Part shown: positions 1,469 to 38,980 of the stretch, one piece after another | Layout of the letters: each line of letters starts with the position of its first letter | Numbering within the stretch: the first letter of the stretch is position 1 | Assembly (NCBI RefSeq): GCF_000255115.2 | Contig: NC_018068.1 | Span: 4,249,977-4,313,976, forward strand | Direction of reading: 5' to 3' | Source of the DNA: Desulfosporosinus acidiphilus SJ4 | GTDB taxonomy: Bacteria > Bacillota > Desulfitobacteriia > Desulfitobacteriales > Desulfitobacteriaceae | DNA: 64,000 nucleotides | The notes under the pieces: generated by a model | Database searches by the model: none | Told to the model about the DNA's origin: nothing | Seen by the model: only the letters and a program-made list of their open reading frames with translations | Program-made: the position numbers and the translations under genes

Positions 1469-1600
1469 CTATATACCCATAAAATAACTTAGGTAATGCC
1501 TGAATTGTTCCGGGTCCACGGTATAAAGAAAAAAAACGGCAGCAATAAAAATTACAATACTAACTGGTAGTAGACTTATTGGAAACTCATCTCCTCCCAT
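1469..1600 (-). CDS. 43-aa membrane peptide of the Tad locus
   Basis: ATG at 1598-1600, with GAGAGGTG nine nt upstream. The product begins MGGDEFPISLLPVSIVIFIA, continues as one hydrophobic helix to about residue 27 and ends with a polar tail (VDPEQFRHYLSYFMGI). No family is recognised. It sits between tadC and another small membrane peptide and is presumably co-transcribed. Its AGGTG ribosome site is complementary to the CACCT of the upstream 19-nt motif at 1748-1766, about 140 nt away, so it may be under the same control as three other genes of the locus. Confidence 0.6.
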   Translation of the reverse strand: MGGDEFPISLLPVSIVIFIAAVFFLYTVDPEQFRHYLSYFMGI

Positions 1601-1747
1601 GTTATACACCTCTCATTTTAGGGTTTTTGAGGTTGTGCGAAACCATAACCTATTGGAAATTCACGTAGATAGTTGTGAAATTTTGGGTTTTACCCTCTCC
1701 CCCTCTTCTACGAATTTGGATTTTATAACCACATTTACTCACTATTT

Positions 1748-1766
1748 AGGTGGCATTCCCATGACA
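1748..1766 (-). promoter_or_regulatory. 19-nt Tad-locus motif, copy D
   Basis: Minus-strand sequence TGTCATGGGAATGCCACCT, starting about 20 nt after the tadC stop. It matches three other copies (6553-6571, 11275-11293, 12298-12316) at 14 positions invariant in all four. Unlike the other copies it is not close to a Shine-Dalgarno; the nearest complementary AGGTG is that of the 43-aa gene (1607-1611). Confidence 0.6.
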
Positions 1767-2635: not shown

Positions 2636-3517
2636 CTATATCGTGACGCGGAATCGAGATAATCGTCTGAGACCGCTAAAAATGATGAAGGTTGCAACGG
2701 ATGAGGCAACAGGTACCCAACCCATGTGGCTGGGAATCTCCCGCCAAATGTCCGGCAATCCAAACCGATAAACAAAGGGACCGGCCAGCGTGATACCCAG
2801 AAAGAAAAGCAGTAAGCCCATCCAGAGACTGATTTCACCTTTTAAGTCGGCCTGTATTTCTTCCTCCTCCTGGAATTCATAGTCAAGAATTTGCAAACCT
2901 CTGCCCCCGGTACCCCCTGCCGTTTTAATGGCGGCGATTACATCGGCATAGAAATAGAAGTTTCCCATGTCCACGTTCTTGGCCATGTTCTCCGTGGCCT
3001 GTACAATCGGTACCATCCCGGCCACTTCTTCTCGGTACTGCTGGGTTATGGCCTGCATGGGGGCATCACGCATCAAGAGACTGGCAGTCTCTTGAGCGTC
3101 TGCGAGGGTTTTGCCGCCTTGTAGCATGTCGGCAACGGTACTTACAAATAGGCTCACTTGATTTCCGAGGGCATCCAGGTGACGAGAGGCCCGTTTTTCA
3201 ACCCAAAGTCCTGGAAGTTGATACCCTACTAAACTCATAACGATTCCGGCACCATAACTTTGAGTTATGAGGAGCCAGGCAATGCCAACGGCAAATGCGG
3301 AGATCCAGGACTTTATAAACAATGTATAGGGAGAGCTTCCCAAGACTTTTAAGCTTTTCAAGGTCACCTGGTTTCCTTTTCGAGCTCTCTCTTCCAGTTT
3401 GGCCCTTCGTAACGCTTTCCTTTGAGCAATCTCTTCGTCATTTTGTTCATTATTTAATGGTTTAAACCGCAGATAGGCTGCCAGGGCTAAAGCTAGGGAA
3501 CTTATCCAAGTAAGCAC
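2636..3517 (-). CDS. tadB: TadB-like inner-membrane platform protein (T2SSF domain)
   Basis: 293 residues. The chain has an N-terminal hydrophobic segment, a basic coiled linker (about 22-50), a membrane pair (about 66-100), a T2SSF-type helical domain (about 110-215, with TVADMLQGGKTLADA and AIKTAGGTGGRGL) and two C-terminal membrane segments. In GspF/TadB proteins the second soluble domain binds the ATPase and drives subunit extraction. Its start overlaps the end of tadA by 16 nt, so the two are translationally coupled. Together with tadC it forms the usual two-gene platform of Tad systems. Confidence 0.85.
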   Translation of the reverse strand: MLTWISSLALALAAYLRFKPLNNEQNDEEIAQRKALRRAKLEERARKGNQVTLKSLKVLGSSPYTLFIKSWISAFAVGIAWLLITQSYGAGIVMSLVGYQLPGLWVEKRASRHLDALGNQVSLFVSTVADMLQGGKTLADAQETASLLMRDAPMQAITQQYREEVAGMVPIVQATENMAKNVDMGNFYFYADVIAAIKTAGGTGGRGLQILDYEFQEEEEIQADLKGEISLWMGLLLFFLGITLAGPFVYRFGLPDIWREIPSHMGWVPVASSVATFIIFSGLRRLSRFRVTI

Positions 3518-5019: not shown

Positions 5020-5229
5020 TCACATCTTAGGTATAACTGAAGTAAGGATATTAAATCTTTGACAAAAGAACATATAGGTGACGGCAGCCCCTAGTCCGAA
5101 GATGAATGCAACGTGTATTGAACCATCACCGCATATCATTTGATGGCCGCCAAAGGTTATGGCGAGGCCGACGAGTACTATTGAAATCAGAAGAGGGAGC
5201 CACCAATAAACAACTAAAAATGCCCACAT
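5020..5229 (-). CDS. 69-aa two-helix membrane protein of the Tad locus
   Basis: ATG at 5229 has a GGAG five nt upstream. Two hydrophobic segments (about 3-25 and 40-58) flank a short loop with a Cys; a second Cys lies after helix 2. No family recognised. It sits between the CpaE-like ATPase and tadA, about 80-90 nt from each, and shares their direction, so it is probably a small accessory membrane subunit. Nothing in the sequence says more. Confidence 0.6.
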   Translation of the reverse strand: MWAFLVVYWWLPLLISIVLVGLAITFGGHQMICGDGSIHVAFIFGLGAAVTYMFFCQRFNILTSVIPKM

Positions 5230-6536: not shown

Positions 6537-6571
6537 CACCTCCTCGTTGATTAGGTGGCAAACCCTTGACA
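6537..6571 (-). promoter_or_regulatory. 19-nt Tad-locus motif, copy A, with Shine-Dalgarno-sequestering hairpin
   Basis: The motif TGTCAAGGGTTTGCCACCT occupies 6553-6571, beginning 8-9 nt after the stop of the upstream ATPase gene. CACCT at its end pairs with AGGTG (6537-6541), part of the AGGAGGTG that serves the TTG start at 6530; the loop is 11 nt. The motif could act as an anti-Shine-Dalgarno arm of a translational switch. Internal palindrome CCTTGTCAAGG is also visible in this copy. Confidence 0.6.
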
Positions 6572-6579
6572 AGGCATTT

Positions 6580-7755
6580 TTAAAACACCTTGGCTTTGGG
6601 TGCCGCCAACAACTGCTTGATTAAGGGATAAATATCTTTCCGGATTCCATCCTGAGGAGACCCGCCCCGTTCTAAGGCATAATACTCTTTGCGCCGATTC
6701 ATCAATTCGGCACTGACTCTTAAACCGGTTTCATACGTAAATTGATGTTTAAGACTTGACTCCGATTGGCTCAAACACCAAATTACCTTATTCCAACCAA
6801 CCGCCATGCGCCAGGTGTCAAAGCGAACCGCTGCATCAACTCCGGAGGCCGTTCCTCGAGACAGCGCTACGATCCAGTTCGCTTGTTGTAGGGCAAGGCG
6901 AGCTAACATTGGTTCACGGTAAGCACCGGCATCGACAATAACGAAGGCTGCCTGTCTGCGAGCCCATTCAAATAGTTTTCGCCCGGTTTCTTCATCCCAG
7001 GTTCCCGAAACATCAACTTTCGATCCGGAAGTGGGAAGGACATTTAAGCCTGTGACTATAGGGATTTGACGTTCTTCAAGTCGATAGATCTCCTCAGAAT
7101 TACGAAGAACAACCGTATCCAAGCCCGCCTGAGATGGGCTTTTCCCCAAGAAGCGCAGTAAACTGCCACCGGTCGGAGAAATTTCTAAAATGAGTACTCG
7201 AAAGCCCTCTTCATGGATGAGACGACCGAGGAGAATACTGGTGCTGGTTGTTCCCACCCCTCCTTGAGTTCCCCACACGGTAATAATTTGTTGCGTGGCA
7301 ACAACGGTCTCTAAGGGTGGACCTCCCTGCCCCAAAAGCCGTGCGAAGAATGATTTGCGCTGACGAATCGTTTCTGAATACCGGTTATCGTCCTCTTTTG
7401 TTCGCTCATCGCTCCAAAGAACTTGCTGAGCTTCACAGTTAACGATGGTGACCTGTAGTTGGCCTTTCTGTTGGACACCTTCGCATTCAATCGCGACGGA
7501 ATACGGTCCACCCACGGGTAATTTAACTCGGGTATTATTAAAAGCAGCTGTAAATCGTCCGGAACTGCTTGCCGTTACATTTACTGGCGTATCGGCAATG
7601 GTCACTGTAACAAGGGCATTAACAAAAGGTTTGTGACCTTCCATGACAATCCCTGACACTCGAAATGGAGTGTCACGAGAAATGCTGATAATATCTTCGA
7701 TCTGTTGGTTTTCTAAAAGCAGCTGCAACCCTACAAAGTAAGGATTTTCCGGCAT
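6580..7755 (-). CDS. CpaE-like ATPase homolog with degenerate P-loop and N-terminal beta-sandwich domain
   Basis: 391 residues; ATG at 7755 follows GGAGGAAGAAAGG. Residues about 28-108 read as a carboxypeptidase-regulatory/Ig-like beta-sandwich (FRVSGIVMEGHKPFVNALVT and SSSGRFTAAFNN). A MinD/ParA-type domain follows, with GTQGGVGTTSTS at about 162-173 where the catalytic lysine of GGVGKT is replaced by Thr. Otherwise it parallels the next gene (LLRFLGKSPSQAGLD against VLRYLGKMPAKIGLD). Inference: a catalytically weak or dead partner of the intact ATPase, perhaps forming a heterodimer. An extracellular-type fold on a cytoplasmic ATPase without signal peptide is odd. Confidence 0.8.
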   Translation of the reverse strand: MPENPYFVGLQLLLENQQIEDIISISRDTPFRVSGIVMEGHKPFVNALVTVTIADTPVNVTASSSGRFTAAFNNTRVKLPVGGPYSVAIECEGVQQKGQLQVTIVNCEAQQVLWSDERTKEDDNRYSETIRQRKSFFARLLGQGGPPLETVVATQQIITVWGTQGGVGTTSTSILLGRLIHEEGFRVLILEISPTGGSLLRFLGKSPSQAGLDTVVLRNSEEIYRLEERQIPIVTGLNVLPTSGSKVDVSGTWDEETGRKLFEWARRQAAFVIVDAGAYREPMLARLALQQANWIVALSRGTASGVDAAVRFDTWRMAVGWNKVIWCLSQSESSLKHQFTYETGLRVSAELMNRRKEYYALERGGSPQDGIRKDIYPLIKQLLAAPKAKVF

Positions 7756-7961
7756 CCTTTCTTCCTCCTTTTTGATCTAATCCGATTCATGTGGTGATCT
7801 AACGGCAAGGGCCTGACGGTAAGGACTTTCTTAACCCCTCCCCAAGTCTCTGCGATGGTTGATGCGGCAATACAATTACGTGCGTAGCAATAGCGTTTGA
7901 CCTCAATCCCCTTTCTGGCTCCAAGATGTCCCAAACGCACAATGACGCTAAAGCATTTCAT
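7731..7961 (-). CDS. 76-aa basic protein, unknown
   Basis: ATG at 7961 overlaps the TGA of the DUF2958 gene and has AAGGAGGAG just upstream. The product is rich in Arg/Lys/Cys/His (MKCFSVIVRLGHLGARKG at the start; RSKRRKKGC near the end) and ends 25 nt inside the following ATPase gene. No domain recognised. The basic character suggests nucleic-acid or membrane-surface binding, but this is only composition. Coupling by overlap on both sides supports it being translated. Confidence 0.5.
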   Translation of the reverse strand: MKCFSVIVRLGHLGARKGIEVKRYCYARNCIAASTIAETWGGVKKVLTVRPLPLDHHMNRIRSKRRKKGCRKILTL

Positions 7962-8245
7962 GACCACTCCTCCTTTTCCTCAAGCTCTTGAGGTTTCCAA
8001 TAGATATCGAGTACGATTGGTAATCCGAATTGATTACGAAATAACGCGATTTCGATGAGGGAAAAGTATCCCCAGACCGATTCAACGTCTGAGATGATAA
8101 GACCATAACAAAGATCCTTACCGTCAAATTCAGTGACGTACCAGGCGTTGCTGCTTTGTGGGTCCCTAAACTTTACCCAAGCTTTCCTGGTTCCATGGCT
8201 AATCGTGGGGATTTGAACACGTATCGCTCCGGGAATTTGGTCCAT
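7958..8245 (-). CDS. DUF2958 family protein
   Basis: 95 residues; ATG at 8245 with AAAGGAGG upstream. The signature of DUF2958 is visible: WYVTEFDGKDLCYGLIIS (about 36-53), GYFSLIEIALFRNQFGLPI (about 60-78) and a closing DIYWKPQEL. DUF2958 proteins are usually found on plasmids, conjugative elements and phage, with unknown function. Its place inside a Tad gene cluster is unusual and is one of the hints that the cluster travels on mobile DNA. Translationally coupled to the next small gene. Confidence 0.75.
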   Translation of the reverse strand: MDQIPGAIRVQIPTISHGTRKAWVKFRDPQSSNAWYVTEFDGKDLCYGLIISDVESVWGYFSLIEIALFRNQFGLPIVLDIYWKPQELEEKEEWS

Positions 8246-8270
8246 ATTAAGCCTCCTTTCAGGGTTTTAT

Positions 8271-8822
8271 TTAAGAGCCACTTTGTCGTGTGGGATTCCA
8301 TTCGTGAGCTGGGTTATAGAAGGTATTAGAGGTAATCGTATCTTTTACCGGAATCGTCCAAGTGACATGGTTTGCAGGTAAAATGCCCTGCAAAACAGAA
8401 AGTTTTAAATTCATGATGATAAAAAGGCTTGTCCCTGGGACAATTCCTTCAAACCCTGACGGTGCCGGGTCGCCCCGATCGCTTTCACTAAACATCTGAA
8501 AACTTTGAATGCTGTAGCTGCTCTGAGGCCATTTCGACAGATACTTGGGTAAAAGTGTTTGGAAATTCTGTTGAACATTCGCCTGAAGTGCCATATCCTG
8601 TCCTCCTTGAAGGTCTGGTATAACGACTTGATCAAGAGCCTGGCGTCCTGCAGTTTCCACAGCATTATGAAGACTTGATACCGTATTATGGACATAGGCA
8701 ATTGCCCCAAACACTGCCGTCAATATCAACAGCAGGCCAATACAGATTAATCCAAAAATATAGATTGAGCCTGCCCCTTTTTCTCGTTGTTCTCGGGGCA
8801 TTTGCAGATAGTTATGAATCAT
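8271..8822 (-). CDS. TadE-like single-pass pseudopilin
   Basis: 183 residues; ATG at 8822 follows AAAGGGG. After 17 charged residues comes GAGSIYIFGLICIGLLLILT (about 17-36), a long N-terminal helix ending near 47 and followed by VHNTVSSLHNAVETAGRQALD, the amphipathic pilin-like helix typical of TadE/TadF proteins. The rest is a 110-residue exported domain with no cysteine. It lies between the propeller protein and DUF2958. Probably a minor pilin; no sequence motif fixes this beyond the N-terminal pattern. Confidence 0.65.
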   Translation of the reverse strand: MIHNYLQMPREQREKGAGSIYIFGLICIGLLLILTAVFGAIAYVHNTVSSLHNAVETAGRQALDQVVIPDLQGGQDMALQANVQQNFQTLLPKYLSKWPQSSYSIQSFQMFSESDRGDPAPSGFEGIVPGTSLFIIMNLKLSVLQGILPANHVTWTIPVKDTITSNTFYNPAHEWNPTRQSGS

Positions 8823-8837
8823 ATGAAATGCCCCTTT

Positions 8838-11234
8838 CTATTCCGAATCTCCAAATTGGACCACGGACGTTGTATAGGTATAATATTCCGTTCCGGTAAT
8901 GTTCAAAGTGTAACTGGCGGTACCGCTGGCATCATACGACCCGGTTTGCCAGATAAAAATAACGCCCGCTTTTGTAGGGATAGGCACTTGATACTCATAC
9001 GTTACATGCACGTTAAACTGAGCATAGAGATCGTCTGACTCCATGATGACAGTACCATCATCCGGAATAGGCGGCGGATAGCCAGCCCATGATTCTCTAA
9101 ATTGACAGGTTGCAGTGCTTCCCTGCGGGGTCATATTTGTAGTTGATTGAGTTATCTTTAGCAAAGGATCATTCCCCGAACCTCCTACGTTTGGGACCCC
9201 GTCTTTATGCGTAATGGATGCTTTGGTAATCGCGACGCCTGTAATGGTGGCATTAAGATACCCTGACGGTGGTGCAGGAGGATTGACTTTTAGGGTGGCT
9301 ACGAGGTAATCTCCATATTTAGCGGTTCCATCCGGAAGTTTATCTGTAAGATTTTGAAGCCCGTAGGCATCAATCTGAAGAGTTGCTGGAATAGTTCCTT
9401 GCGGATTCCATGGACCAGGGTTAACACTGAAACTAGTCGTGGCCTGGGCAGTTTCACCGCCGTTGTTGGTTGCCGTGACGGTAACGGTATACGTCGTTTG
9501 TTGGCCTGTAGTATTATTGGGTGCAACGACCATGCCGGACCACGTATCATTAGGGTTTTGGCTTAACGTAATATCGACCGGTGTGCTTTTTCCGTCTGTA
9601 ATATGGGCGGTCATGCTTTTTGTAACAGACGTTGGATAAGGTGTCGCTACGATGGTCACCGGGTTTCCTTCATCGACGATACTCGGCGTTGCCGATGCTG
9701 TAACTGAATAGGAGGCCGGAGCCCAAAGTTCTATACATCCTTGGGTATCAAGGCCGTAATTTGTCCATGCAGCTAGATAATGAAGGTCCGTTCCGCTGGG
9801 ATCTGTGCCTACATCGGCAGCAACGGAGGTATAGGGAGCCGAAACTGCACCCAGGGTTTGCCAGGTCCTTTTCCACGTTTGTTGGTTATCGGCTTGTTGA
9901 AAAGCAACCGGCAAGTTGTCGCAGCTCATCGGACTTGTTACAAGAAGGCCCGCCGTCCCTGTAGAAGCGATAAAAATAGTGTCTGTGCTGCCGTTTCTCA
10001 CCACAGCCGGAGAATCTAATCCAGAAAAACTGCTTATTTGAGTATCGCCTTGTCCAATCAAATCAACGGTCGTGGCGTTTAAGGTCGAGTGTCCATTGCC
10101 AACCCAGATGATGTTTTCTCCGTCCAATGCCAGGTTAGTGATGCAAGGATTACTCTGATCCATGGCCGAGATGTCATCGGCCAGTAAGTCTCCATTGGCG
10201 CTTAGCTGATAAATCGCTGCGCCCTGATCGGGGACATAGATTCTGCCGTCTGAAGCAACGGCTGGTGAGCTGTCGATCGGGCCATAGAAAATAGGGGAAC
10301 CACTGGAGCTATAACAGGTTTTGTAATTGCCGGTCATGGGGTCCATGAGGATGAGACGATTTTTGCCGCTTTCGGCTGCGTCAACACCGAAAACAGCAGC
10401 TCCTTGAGTTCCGACAGCCGTAGTATGGAGATTCCATGCTGGGGAGGATGTAACAATGTCGTTGGTGGCATTGGAAGAGTCATCGGTGGTTTTATAGTAA
10501 TTAGGTATTGCTAAAACATTAGCTGGAGAATAAAGTGGCTGTGAAATTACGCCGCCCGACCAACTACCAACTACAGCGAAAGGTGTTTGCCAAGTCACAG
10601 TTTGTCCGCTAGTCAAATCAGTGCCAGATGCTGTTAGTGCGGGAGTTATTAATGGAGATGCTGCAATTTGTTGAATCGCATTTCCAGAATTACCCCTAAT
10701 AGGACTGGATTGCATTTGATCGGGATGATCTATCGGCCACCAATAAAGGTATTCACCAACAGCGATTGCCAAATAACCATTAGTAATGGTTGGGCCTGAA
10801 ACACCCGCCCCGGAATTGACTTCTCCATTAGGCCCACTTGGTGGGGCGTAAAAGTTTTGAACAATTTTGGCATTTAGAGTTATCCCATTTCCTGGGGTCC
10901 AAGCGTATTGTCCGGTCGTAACTGGTTTAGTTAAGTCAACCTCCCACAAATGACCATAATCTGAATCATCGTAGGTATACTGGTAGAGTTTATTGCCTAC
11001 AACTACGGGTGTTGTGTATGAATACTGTTGATAGCCATTCCATTTAGAAATCTCGACGTAATACGGATTGCTATTGTATATAAGCCCGTTAAAAGATGAA
11101 TCGTTGACCGTATTGTCCCTTGAGATGTCCGCATCATGGGTGTAATTGTCTGCAGCTCTTACATTTGATGATGCTATGAAGAGAAAAAGCAATGTTAGAA
11201 ATGAAATTAGTCTAAACCATTTCCTATTGAGCAA
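8838..11234 (-). CDS. Secreted beta-propeller (PQQ/WD-like) protein with Ig-like C-terminal part
   Basis: The start is best placed at TTG 11234, preceded by GAGAGGTGG, giving 798 residues with a textbook signal peptide (NRKWFRLISFLTLLFLFIAS, cleavage near VRA-ADN). Residues about 30-480 contain blade-like repeats (KLYQYTYDDSDYGHLWEVDL; SPAVASDGRIYVPDQGAAIY; DGENIIWVGNG) of the PQQ/quinoprotein-type propeller. From about 520 a Big/Ig-like stretch follows (YSVTASATPSIVDEGNPVTI). There is no membrane anchor or LPXTG, so it is released or held by the Tad structure. It is next to a pseudopilin gene, suggesting a surface component of the pilus system. Substrate unknown. Confidence 0.75.
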   Translation of the reverse strand: MLNRKWFRLISFLTLLFLFIASSNVRAADNYTHDADISRDNTVNDSSFNGLIYNSNPYYVEISKWNGYQQYSYTTPVVVGNKLYQYTYDDSDYGHLWEVDLTKPVTTGQYAWTPGNGITLNAKIVQNFYAPPSGPNGEVNSGAGVSGPTITNGYLAIAVGEYLYWWPIDHPDQMQSSPIRGNSGNAIQQIAASPLITPALTASGTDLTSGQTVTWQTPFAVVGSWSGGVISQPLYSPANVLAIPNYYKTTDDSSNATNDIVTSSPAWNLHTTAVGTQGAAVFGVDAAESGKNRLILMDPMTGNYKTCYSSSGSPIFYGPIDSSPAVASDGRIYVPDQGAAIYQLSANGDLLADDISAMDQSNPCITNLALDGENIIWVGNGHSTLNATTVDLIGQGDTQISSFSGLDSPAVVRNGSTDTIFIASTGTAGLLVTSPMSCDNLPVAFQQADNQQTWKRTWQTLGAVSAPYTSVAADVGTDPSGTDLHYLAAWTNYGLDTQGCIELWAPASYSVTASATPSIVDEGNPVTIVATPYPTSVTKSMTAHITDGKSTPVDITLSQNPNDTWSGMVVAPNNTTGQQTTYTVTVTATNNGGETAQATTSFSVNPGPWNPQGTIPATLQIDAYGLQNLTDKLPDGTAKYGDYLVATLKVNPPAPPSGYLNATITGVAITKASITHKDGVPNVGGSGNDPLLKITQSTTNMTPQGSTATCQFRESWAGYPPPIPDDGTVIMESDDLYAQFNVHVTYEYQVPIPTKAGVIFIWQTGSYDASGTASYTLNITGTEYYTYTTSVVQFGDSE

Positions 11235-11241
11235 AATAAAA

Positions 11242-11293
11242 CCACCTCTCTTATAAAAATTCCTTTCATAAGAGAGGTGGCAAACACTTGACA
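11242..11293 (-). promoter_or_regulatory. 19-nt Tad-locus motif, copy B, with 13-bp hairpin that buries the ribosome site
   Basis: TGTCAAGTGTTTGCCACCT (11275-11293) overlaps a perfect 13-bp stem: CCACCTCTCTTAT on the mRNA pairs with ATAAGAGAGGTGG (plus-strand arms 11242-11254 and 11268-11280) across a 13-nt loop. The downstream arm holds the GAGAGGTGG that serves the TTG start at 11234. The loop carries an AAGGA. The strength of this stem predicts poor translation unless it is opened by a factor, a processed 5' end or an alternative fold. Confidence 0.7.
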
Positions 11294-11313
11294 ATTGTTT
11301 TAAGTTTTAAGTT

Positions 11314-12207
11314 TTAAGCAACTCGATGTCTCACATAAATCATTCTTCCGGCAACTGCTGCAAAGGCGAAGATAGTAACCGCTGCTGCAACCCATAACCA
11401 AATATTTTTTTGCGTTTGTGTTTCTTCTTTTATCGGTAACTTGGTCGGTATATTTGCCGGATTACTGCTCGGTGGATTTTGTGTGGATAATATTTTATCG
11501 GCTGCTACCATTTCCTGTGTCATTGGACCAGACGGAGTTTTCACCGTTTGACCAACCGCAGGATCAGACTGTACTGGTGATATTGACGTGTTAGCCTTGC
11601 TTTGCTGCGCTGTCATTACTGTTGCGCTACTAGATTGCTTACTAGAAGTGCTTTGAGAAGGAGGATTGTTCTGAGTTTGTGATTGCGTCACTGGGGCAGG
11701 TGTAGGCGCTTGTGTTTGTGTAGGTACGGTCTGATTCGTCGATTGAACCGAATAGCCCATCTTCTGTAGCCAGGATGTCTGATCTGAGTTAAGAGTAGTT
11801 GATGAGGGCGGAATATTCGCTCCACCAACTTGAGATGGGTTGAAATTCTGTACCTTCATAGCAGCTAAAACATTATCCGAAAATTTAATATTACTTCCAA
11901 AAGTACCGTTTGTACCTCCAAGATAATTACCATATCCTTCTTGCTCGGCTAAAAGAATTGGCCGAACATCATCAAGAGAGTGCCACGAAGAATCAAATGG
12001 TGCATCTATTTCATTAGATGCTCTAAATCCTCCCGTATATAAAAAGCTAATCACTGTATTTTTACCGCCTTGGTTTGGGCCAACGGTCCAAGCTGATAAC
12101 GTTAATCCACTTGGTACATCATTGTTATACGTCGTGGCCATGACTGCACCTGGTAATAGAGTTATTAGGATACAGAGTAATGCTAAGATCATCCCAAACT
12201 TCCTCAT
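11314..12207 (-). CDS. Exported, C-terminally membrane-anchored Ser/Thr/Gln/Pro-rich protein
   Basis: ATG at 12207 is preceded by GGAGGTGAGAAGG and starts a clear signal peptide (MRKFGMILALLCILITLLPG, cleavage near VMA-TTY), giving 297 residues. A compact domain (about 25-125) precedes a low-complexity Gln/Ser/Thr/Pro linker (about 130-250), then a C-terminal helix LWVAAAVTIFAFAAVAGRMI and a basic tail. So it is a surface stalk held in the membrane. An in-frame ATG at 12276 also has a good ribosome site (GGAGGTG) and would add 24 residues; that start lies under the copy C hairpin, so two N-termini or a leader are possible. Confidence 0.7.
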   Translation of the reverse strand: MRKFGMILALLCILITLLPGAVMATTYNNDVPSGLTLSAWTVGPNQGGKNTVISFLYTGGFRASNEIDAPFDSSWHSLDDVRPILLAEQEGYGNYLGGTNGTFGSNIKFSDNVLAAMKVQNFNPSQVGGANIPPSSTTLNSDQTSWLQKMGYSVQSTNQTVPTQTQAPTPAPVTQSQTQNNPPSQSTSSKQSSSATVMTAQQSKANTSISPVQSDPAVGQTVKTPSGPMTQEMVAADKILSTQNPPSSNPANIPTKLPIKEETQTQKNIWLWVAAAVTIFAFAAVAGRMIYVRHRVA

Positions 12208-12283
12208 CCTTCTCACCTCCAAAATATTCCTGTTGATTACATTGTAACATATTTTTGGGTAAAGTTTTAATATCATTTCTTTA

Positions 12284-12316
12284 CACCTCCATAATAAAGG
12301 TGGCAAATACATGACA
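12284..12316 (-). promoter_or_regulatory. 19-nt Tad-locus motif, copy C, with short Shine-Dalgarno hairpin
   Basis: TGTCATGTATTTGCCACCT (12298-12316) lies about 45 nt after the stop of the RCC1-type surface protein. Its CACCT pairs with AGGTG at 12284-12288 across a 9-nt loop, covering the GGAGGTG that precedes the ATG at 12276. The second start at 12207 would stay free. Confidence 0.6.
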
Positions 12317-15953: not shown

Positions 15954-16295
15954 TTAATTAGATACCCTTTTATGAACAAATTTCAATACCTTTCGAACGT
16001 CTTCTTCTGTAACGCCCCTAACTTCGCTGGGAAGAACTTTTAGCTTGCAAATATGTAAATGATGAGGGGCTGTCTCTATATCATCAAAATGGGGTGCATT
16101 ATTAAATCTATAAAATCCTTTATCACATTCCCAATGGTACGAATAGCGCCCGTTAGCATTCTGGTGAATATCAATATAACTTCCATCAAATAAAGTGAGT
16201 CGAATACGCTTACGTCTTGGATCGACAATTTCAACCTTTTCGATTAAAGACGGAAATTCGAGTTTACACAAATTGGCAATTTCTTCAATCATCAT
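15954..16295 (-). CDS. TumE-like toxin (DUF6516)
   Basis: 113 residues. The core DGSYIDIHQNANGRYSYHWE followed by FYRFNNAPHFDD and HHLHICKLKVLPSE matches the DUF6516/TumE toxin layout, with an aromatic-rich middle and a His-His-x-His cluster. It overlaps the end of the upstream antitoxin gene by 11 nt, the usual gene arrangement here (antitoxin first). TumE toxins inhibit growth by an RNA-related mechanism that I cannot infer from sequence. Intact and near the usual family length. Confidence 0.7.
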   Translation of the reverse strand: MMIEEIANLCKLEFPSLIEKVEIVDPRRKRIRLTLFDGSYIDIHQNANGRYSYHWECDKGFYRFNNAPHFDDIETAPHHLHICKLKVLPSEVRGVTEEDVRKVLKFVHKRVSN

Positions 16296-38698: not shown

Positions 38699-38762
38699 GT
38701 GTCTGTACAACAAAACAGGATAGCAGGGTGGGCGGCTAATCCCCTAGAAAGGGGGTGATGCC

Positions 38763-38864
38763 ATGAATCAGATGTATCAAACAATATCTTTAATGATTGC
38801 ATTTGCAACTTTGGTTGTTTTGATACTTCGATTTGCGTTTGATATAACGCAAAAGAAAAAGTAG
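38763..38864 (+). CDS. Type I toxin, holin-like membrane peptide, 33 aa
   Basis: ATG 38763 has AAGGGGGTGATGCC upstream. The peptide MNQMYQTISLMIAFATLVVL then ILRFAFDITQKKK matches the TxpA/holin-like toxins of Firmicutes phages: short N-terminus, one helix and a Lys tail. Overproduction of such peptides damages the membrane. The gene ends in a stem shared with an antisense RNA, AAAAAGTAGC / GCTACTTTTT (38855-38892). Confidence 0.7.
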   Translation: MNQMYQTISLMIAFATLVVLILRFAFDITQKKK

Positions 38865-38980
38865 CCCATCCCTGACCGGAAGCTACTTTTTCCGTATTCC
38901 TATAACCGCTCACTTTGCGGCTTGTTGTGCAAGCTAGGGTGCTGTAACATCCTAGCTTCTAATATTTATGCCATATCTTA
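38850..38980 (-). ncRNA. Candidate antisense antitoxin RNA
   Basis: A minus-strand promoter TTGAAT (39009-39014), 17 nt, TATAAT (38986-38991) points toward the toxin 3' end. The RNA would begin near 38979, form the AAGCTAGG/CCTAGCTT stem-loop (38929-38957) and run into the shared terminator stem at 38855-38892, overlapping the last toxin codons. This is the RatA-like arrangement of type I pairs. No transcript evidence. Confidence 0.6.

Follow-up and report, generated by a model that had tools for sequence, protein, structure and literature searches.

The 64,000-nt stretch of Desulfosporosinus acidiphilus SJ4 that we analysed (the window, C3:4249977-4313976 of the 4.99-Mb genome) carries part of a locus in which a 19-nt motif, TGTCAwGkrwwTGCCACCT, recurs between the genes. 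The surface genes on the minus strand of this locus encode a CWB2/RCC1 surface propeller, an anchored protein and a secreted propeller. The pilus genes encode MinD/CpaE-like ATPases, TadA (T2SSE), TadB/C-like proteins, small pilins, a PilV-like Big_1/glycine-rich protein, CpaB (RcpC/SAF) and a prepilin peptidase, and the remaining genes encode a helix-turn-helix protein, a tyrosine recombinase, a glycosyltransferase, GGDEF and EAL proteins, a VirB4/TraG-like ATPase and an FtsK-like protein. The labels TadB/C, PilV, FtsK and secreted propeller were assigned by inspection, the recombinase family was assigned through a homolog of 49% identity, and gene starts were set by rule of thumb. This gene content identifies a Tad-pilus/type-IV-secretion-like locus.

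The original prediction had reported four copies of the motif on the minus strand of the window, with 14 of 19 positions identical in all of them, each copy closely following a stop codon and offering its CCACCT to a downstream Shine-Dalgarno (SD) sequence. All four copies are present without a mismatch, where 0.23 would be expected at up to 3 mismatches; the count of 14 identical positions holds, and the copies start 45, 20, 8 and 18 nt past the upstream stop codon, in agreement with that description. The copies and their predicted partners, in window coordinates, are as follows.

12298 to 12316, minus strand: copy 1 of the 19-nt motif, TGTCATGTATTTGCCACCT, 45 nt past the stop codon of the RCC1/CWB2 propeller gene
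12274 to 12290, minus strand: SD GGAGGTG and ATG predicted to pair with copy 1, P(SD paired)=0.99, P(start paired)=0.99
11275 to 11293, minus strand: copy 2 of the 19-nt motif, TGTCAAGTGTTTGCCACCT
11232 to 11281, minus strand: predicted copy 2 hairpin of 13 bp or more, GCCACCTCTCTTAT...ATAAGAGAGGTGG, followed by TTTTATT and the start codon TTG of the 798-aa secreted propeller gene
6553 to 6571, minus strand: copy 3 of the 19-nt motif, TGTCAAGGGTTTGCCACCT, 8 nt past a stop codon
6528 to 6541, minus strand: SD AGGTG and start codon TTG of the MinD/CpaE-like ATPase, predicted to pair with copy 3
1748 to 1766, minus strand: copy 4 of the 19-nt motif, TGTCATGGGAATGCCACCT, 18 nt past the stop codon of the TadC-like gene
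1598 to 1611, minus strand: AGGTG and ATG of the first pilin-like gene, distant predicted partner of copy 4

A search of the whole genome (5 Mb) with TGTCA-N6-TGCCACCT returned 9 exact copies and 1 with a single mismatch. All ten lie on the minus strand of one locus within a 37-kb span (C3:4224957-4262292), and outside it there are only three scattered 1-mismatch matches, which is the chance level. With four of the ten copies inside it, the window shows only the upstream end of the array; the earlier observation is real, and larger than first described. The copies, numbered 1 to 10, sit where the tight packing of the genes is interrupted, so that most of them head a module. In the window these modules begin with the anchored protein (copy 1), the secreted propeller (copy 2), the MinD-like ATPase (copy 3) and the pilins with PilV (copy 4); beyond it they begin with CpaB (copy 5), the glycosyltransferase (copy 6), a small membrane protein (copy 7), a YdjM-like protein with the GGDEF/EAL block (copy 8) and the VirB4-containing block (copy 9), and copy 10 lies at the end of the locus. 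Not every intergenic gap of the locus carries a copy.

Four further copies are found in related loci of two congeners, and nothing else stood above noise when 30 congeneric genomes were searched at 1 mismatch and with a sequence model. Three are on G001:C31, which retains a remnant of the locus. The fourth is on G004:C242, where the flanking genes are, as at the D. acidiphilus locus, a recombinase (49% identical) and CpaB (30% identical). G004 also has, before CpaB at 3169-3207, a second TGCCACCT hairpin with a U-run and without TGTCA, possibly a decayed copy. At the propeller junction the hairpin is identical at 61 of 62 nt between D. acidiphilus and G001; around it the intergenic DNA is near random or can scarcely be aligned, and the genes have diverged at many positions (the upstream protein is 69% identical). 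Pairwise differences among the 14 copies average 0.05 at the 14 core sites, 0.37 at the five inner sites and 0.71 upstream. A near-invariant core next to inner positions that vary in many combinations indicates that the copies are not fresh duplicates and looks like selection. The conservation runs beyond the 19-mer to a TNNTGAR within the loop.

Homologous loci lacking both the motif and its pairing with the SD would have spoken against the original prediction, and on this point the outcome is divided. The motif itself is missing from the Tad loci of the congeners G014 and G021, but G021 keeps the hairpin: its propeller junction has a hairpin built on CCACCT/AGGTGG whose upper stem is unrelated, and the same junction in G014 has a plain terminator that leaves the SD free. 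The presence of hairpins at this junction in both genomes suggests that the junction hairpin is probably older than the motif, while the missing 19-mer indicates that the motif is restricted to a lineage and is no fixed part of Tad loci.

The closest relative of the VirB4-like protein (44-47% identical) belongs to another genus of the same family and is encoded on G031:C52. The end of this contig repeats positions 261-1793 exactly, indicating a circle of about 109 kb (plasmid-like). Its intercistronic regions repeat a word of their own, TGTTGGACAAAAACCACCT, seven times (one copy with 2 mismatches), and the word occurs on this contig only. The G031 and Desulfosporosinus words have in common TGT, the 19-nt length, CCACCT and a following TGAR, and nothing else. 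Several copies stand at matching junctions: upstream of CpaB (in G031 with a short intervening region), between the end of the TadC-like gene and PilV, ahead of the gene of a 464-aa membrane protein, and overlapping the stop codon of that gene. One of the G031:C52 copies precedes a TnpB-like (OrfB_IS605) gene.

The taxonomic range of the element is bounded by the genome set searched. Among the genomes of the class and the phylum that were searched, VirB4-like relatives at E≤1e-70 occur only in D. acidiphilus and G031, and viral contigs have none; more distant relatives (25-29%) are on Paenibacillus plasmids. An unsupervised repeat search of four other Tad/type-IV-secretion-like loci (in G014, G021 and G011, and a second one in D. 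acidiphilus itself) detected no such repeat. The second D. acidiphilus locus (C3:1495000-1514999), which is without the element, encodes close relatives (76-77% identical) of two proteins of the first locus, one of 71 aa and one of 90 aa. Elsewhere in GTDB the exact motif with its hairpin is at chance level (3 unrelated matches). Viral contigs gave at least 120 chance-like matches to the bare motif, none with a hairpin, and a viral match to TGTTGGACAAAAACCACCT likewise had none.

Hairpins of 5 to 13 bp that hide the downstream SD had been proposed for three of the window copies. In our folds, local hairpins in which CCACCT pairs with the SD are predicted at copy 2 (13 bp and a U-run), copy 1 and copy 3. 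At copy 1, CCACCT is predicted to pair with AGGTG and TGTCAT with ATGATA, and the start codon is in frame with the anchored protein gene; copies 1 and 3 both form about 5 bp within the SD and further pairs with the start codon. The copy 2 hairpin is terminator-like, with the highest score within its 20-kb stretch, and the fold of copy 3 is the weakest of the set (5'-shuffle fraction 0.205). Copy 4 lies about 140 nt from its AGGTG (1607-1611), and with 175 nt folded the long-range pairing has P of about 0.5.

Taken over all copies, CCACCT meets 5-7 nt of SD complementarity no more than 50 nt away in 12 of the 14 Desulfosporosinus copies, and 7 nt in nine of them. SDs of the GGTG type precede 5 of 8 motif-headed genes vs 0 of 28 other genes of the locus (p=1.5e-4, automatic starts). 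When the 13 copies with an adjacent start from both lineages were folded, the SD was paired with P of 0.57-1.00 and the start codon with P of 0.44-1.00, and in most of them the 5' part of the motif is predicted to pair around the start codon, with UCAWG as the pairing stretch in Desulfosporosinus and GGACA in G031. For 11 of the 13 copies, no more than 5% of the trials with a shuffled 5' part matched or undercut the energy of the copy itself; copy 3 and G031_19482 were not significant in this test. The upper stems vary among the copies and between copy 2 and G021, the different 5' word of G031 is still predicted to pair, and the changes inside CCACCT/AGGTGG itself are G-U only. Pairing predicted to be maintained through sequence change, together with complementarity to the SD, is what characterises an SD-sequestering cis-regulatory hairpin. 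In addition, a GC-containing stem is directly followed by a U-run at copies 2, 5, 6, 7, 8 and 9, at G001_3993 and at several G031 copies, and copies 2, 8 and 9 are the strongest terminator-like sites of their stretches.

These results favor, with a probability of about 0.6, the conclusion that the copies form a lineage-specific family of cis-acting RNA hairpins that restrain translation, and at some sites transcription, of each module until they are opened. The suggestion of one shared RNA-level element that hides SDs is thereby strengthened, both by the distribution of GGTG-type SDs and by the recurrence of the predicted structure in another genus with a different sequence. Each copy would be the 5' strand of a hairpin that heads a gene module: CCACCU, common to both lineages, would pair with the AGGUGG-type SD, and the 5' part (UCAWG or GGACA) would pair around the start codon. 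The formed hairpin would block ribosome entry, and where the stem is followed by a U-run it would also terminate transcription, so that the module would be expressed only while the hairpin is kept open. The near-invariant and partly unpaired residues (TGT, the internal loop and the apical TGAR) would most simply be the binding site of one dedicated trans-acting factor, which by opening all copies together would tie the expression of the modules. What we computed are the copies, their confinement and conservation, the predicted pairing and its recurrence with another sequence; from these we infer the repression or termination and the common opener. The opener is probably specific to the locus, since the genome has the word at no other place and G031 uses a different one. 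Together the hairpins probably serve the entire pilus/secretion machine as a common, built-in switch.

Several observations weigh against these hairpins acting as described. No trans factor was found, and the two congeners G014 and G021 have homologous Tad genes without the motif. Many 5'-shuffled sequences also score a high P(SD paired), with means of 0.54-0.71, which means that the signal lies in the energy and not in P(SD). The match between motif base 6 and the first base of the start codon (7 of 9) is not significant and is suggestive only. Individual copies also deviate: copy 10 is without a clear hairpin, copy 7 and one copy in G031 run into the stop codon of the preceding gene and have an SD that is degenerate or falls outside, the SD-like arm of copy 9 has no adjacent standard start, and copy 4 pairs at long range only. 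The U-run is present in only about half of the copies, with none at copies 1, 3 and 10 or at G001_4982.

A more specific version of the mechanism, which we put forward as tentative, is that a single reader encoded in a mobile pilus/secretion locus recognises the lineage-specific word ahead of the modules and opens hairpins that would otherwise block both translation and transcription, turning on the entire machine at once. Word and reader would have evolved together and been exchanged from genus to genus, with the anti-SD core and the junctions kept. The numerous components of long transfer and pilus operons have to be produced jointly, and only on demand. If the hairpins work in this way, control would lie in an RNA word repeated ahead of every module and not at one promoter, in two wordings at the same junctions of two genera. 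The search for the reader molecule would then be well posed, since it should occur with the matching word and differ between lineages. Repetition through one locus, with recognition strands specific to the genus, is what makes these hairpins unusual.

How else could one word come to stand before so many modules? The main rivals are processive antitermination and coupling to upstream ribosomes, either of which could coexist with SD-sequestering hairpins. Under the first, the copies would be intra-operon terminators or attenuators of a conjugation-type operon, bypassed by processive antitermination, and the SD overlap would be secondary. We consider this unlikely, even though the stem and U-run stand immediately before the start at copies 2, 5, 6 and 8 and at G001_3993, copies 2, 8 and 9 rank as top terminator-like sites, and the homologous junctions in G021 and G014 carry ordinary intrinsic terminators that do not require SD contact. 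There is a precedent in conjugation operons of the pLS20 family, in which conAn provides processive antitermination past multiple internal terminators, more than 20 of them intrinsic terminators in the pLS20 operon (PMC8955417). The present locus resembles that system in having numerous terminator-like hairpins inside a long transfer operon on a putatively mobile element; it differs in that one 19-nt word is common to its hairpins and that these include the SD. Roughly half of the copies are without a U-run and still keep the 19-mer and the SD pairing, and conAn-type bypass as described acts on the elongation complex at the start of the operon and requires no common sequence per terminator. 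No antiterminator or conAn component was identified in the locus, where no search with conAn models was made. The copies also resemble ribonucleic antiterminator (RAT) sites of the LicT/BglG family, where a conserved sequence lies just upstream of, and overlaps, the 5' arm of a terminator, but the conserved word here has no convincing hairpin of its own and the Pfam matches of the locus include no PRD-type antiterminator.

Under the second rival, to which we likewise give a low probability, ribosomes ending the upstream gene or a very short open reading frame would open the stem, keeping the modules proportional with no trans factor. Most copies begin 5-77 nt past a stop codon, and copy 7 and G031_20168 overlap the stop codon of the upstream gene, as such coupling would produce. 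Coupling would require the pairing alone, however, and not a near-invariant, partly unpaired 5' sequence common to 10 copies; moreover, no consistent short open reading frame or SD is present upstream in 21 copies, and the frames to the conserved TGA differ.

Less probable than these is a trans-encoded small RNA complementary to the motif, which the original prediction had listed among possible switches. A short target common to many leaders is a typical design of small-RNA regulons, but the genome holds no whole-motif antisense at ≤1 mismatch beyond chance matches. The loci hold complements of only 9-13 nt, the longest of which, a 13-mer in G031, is inside a coding region, so the long antisense form is unsupported; a short seed could still serve. 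Least probable is a DNA operator, for instance a CRP/FNR-like TGTCA-N6-TGCCA half-site pair controlling internal promoters: the spacing is that of the half-sites of CRP-family sites and the sequence is conserved in 14 copies, but the DNA-binding site suggested earlier is made unlikely by the single orientation of every copy that has an adjacent gene, by conservation that takes in CCACCT and its SD partner, by the variable spacing to the 3' arm and the paired start codon, by a motif-to-SD gap too small for a promoter with no enrichment of promoter-like sites, and by G031, which keeps the pairing and not the TGTCA/TGCCA half-sites.

Other readings were tried and rejected. As a leader peptide, the frame NTG-TCA-..-CAC-CTN would give (M/L)SxVCHLxxE, in places ending at the next start; an SD is missing upstream, NTG is unconserved at its first base, the frame fails in G031 and the variation has no third-position bias. 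A sigma-54 or other promoter is discounted by a spacing that is off by one, a missing GG, no -10 at a fixed distance and a promoter scan at background. In a covariance-model search no Rfam family reached its gathering score at any copy, and the best permissive match on the region of the finding was a chance snoRNA (E=0.41), which bears out the earlier statement that no known riboswitch class fits. SD-masking translational riboswitches also have a conserved anti-SD strand; here no Rfam class matches and there is no conserved aptamer domain upstream of the 19-mer.

RNA thermometers of the ROSE type, found before small heat-shock genes, are SD-sequestering hairpins of the 5' untranslated region that are repeated in one genome. 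They share with the present hairpins several copies per genome and a conserved 5' strand that pairs with the SD. They differ in that the copies here lie in one locus, between genes and before pilus/secretion genes, with the start codon also paired and often with a U-run. With energies predicted at -11 to -29 kcal/mol, the hairpins seem more stable than a thermometer should be, and a ROSE or fourU thermometer was rejected because neither family model in Rfam matched.

Several further observations concern the locus and its surroundings. At C3:4244503-4251214, to the left of the window, the C-terminal segment of the PilV-like gene recurs inverted on the plus strand (4247149-4247973 and 4246156-4246866), adjoining a tyrosine recombinase, and these segments are a shufflon-like phase-variation system for the pilus adhesin. 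We rejected the motif as a recombination site of this nearby Rci-like recombinase, the invertible gene segments being without it at ≤1 mismatch. CGTGACA/TGTCACG iteron-like repeats are found at C3:4223313-4223979, next to the last motif copy, and in the G001 remnant (about 10175-10230), and in D. acidiphilus a phage-replisome-organiser-like gene lies near them; together these suggest that a plasmid-like element may have integrated to give the locus. The locus also encodes a pair of similar small membrane proteins, about 65-69 aa long (MWAFLVVYWWLP... and MTILWTFLLAHWWLP...), at 5020-5229 on the minus strand of the window and at about 4224.7 kb of C3. Upstream of the locus, a TumE-like toxin gene (Pfam, 4e-12) occupies 15954-16295 on the minus strand of the window, and at 38706-38955 on the plus strand lies the sole gathering-level Rfam match of the window, the type I toxin-antitoxin RNA BsrG (61.9 bits).

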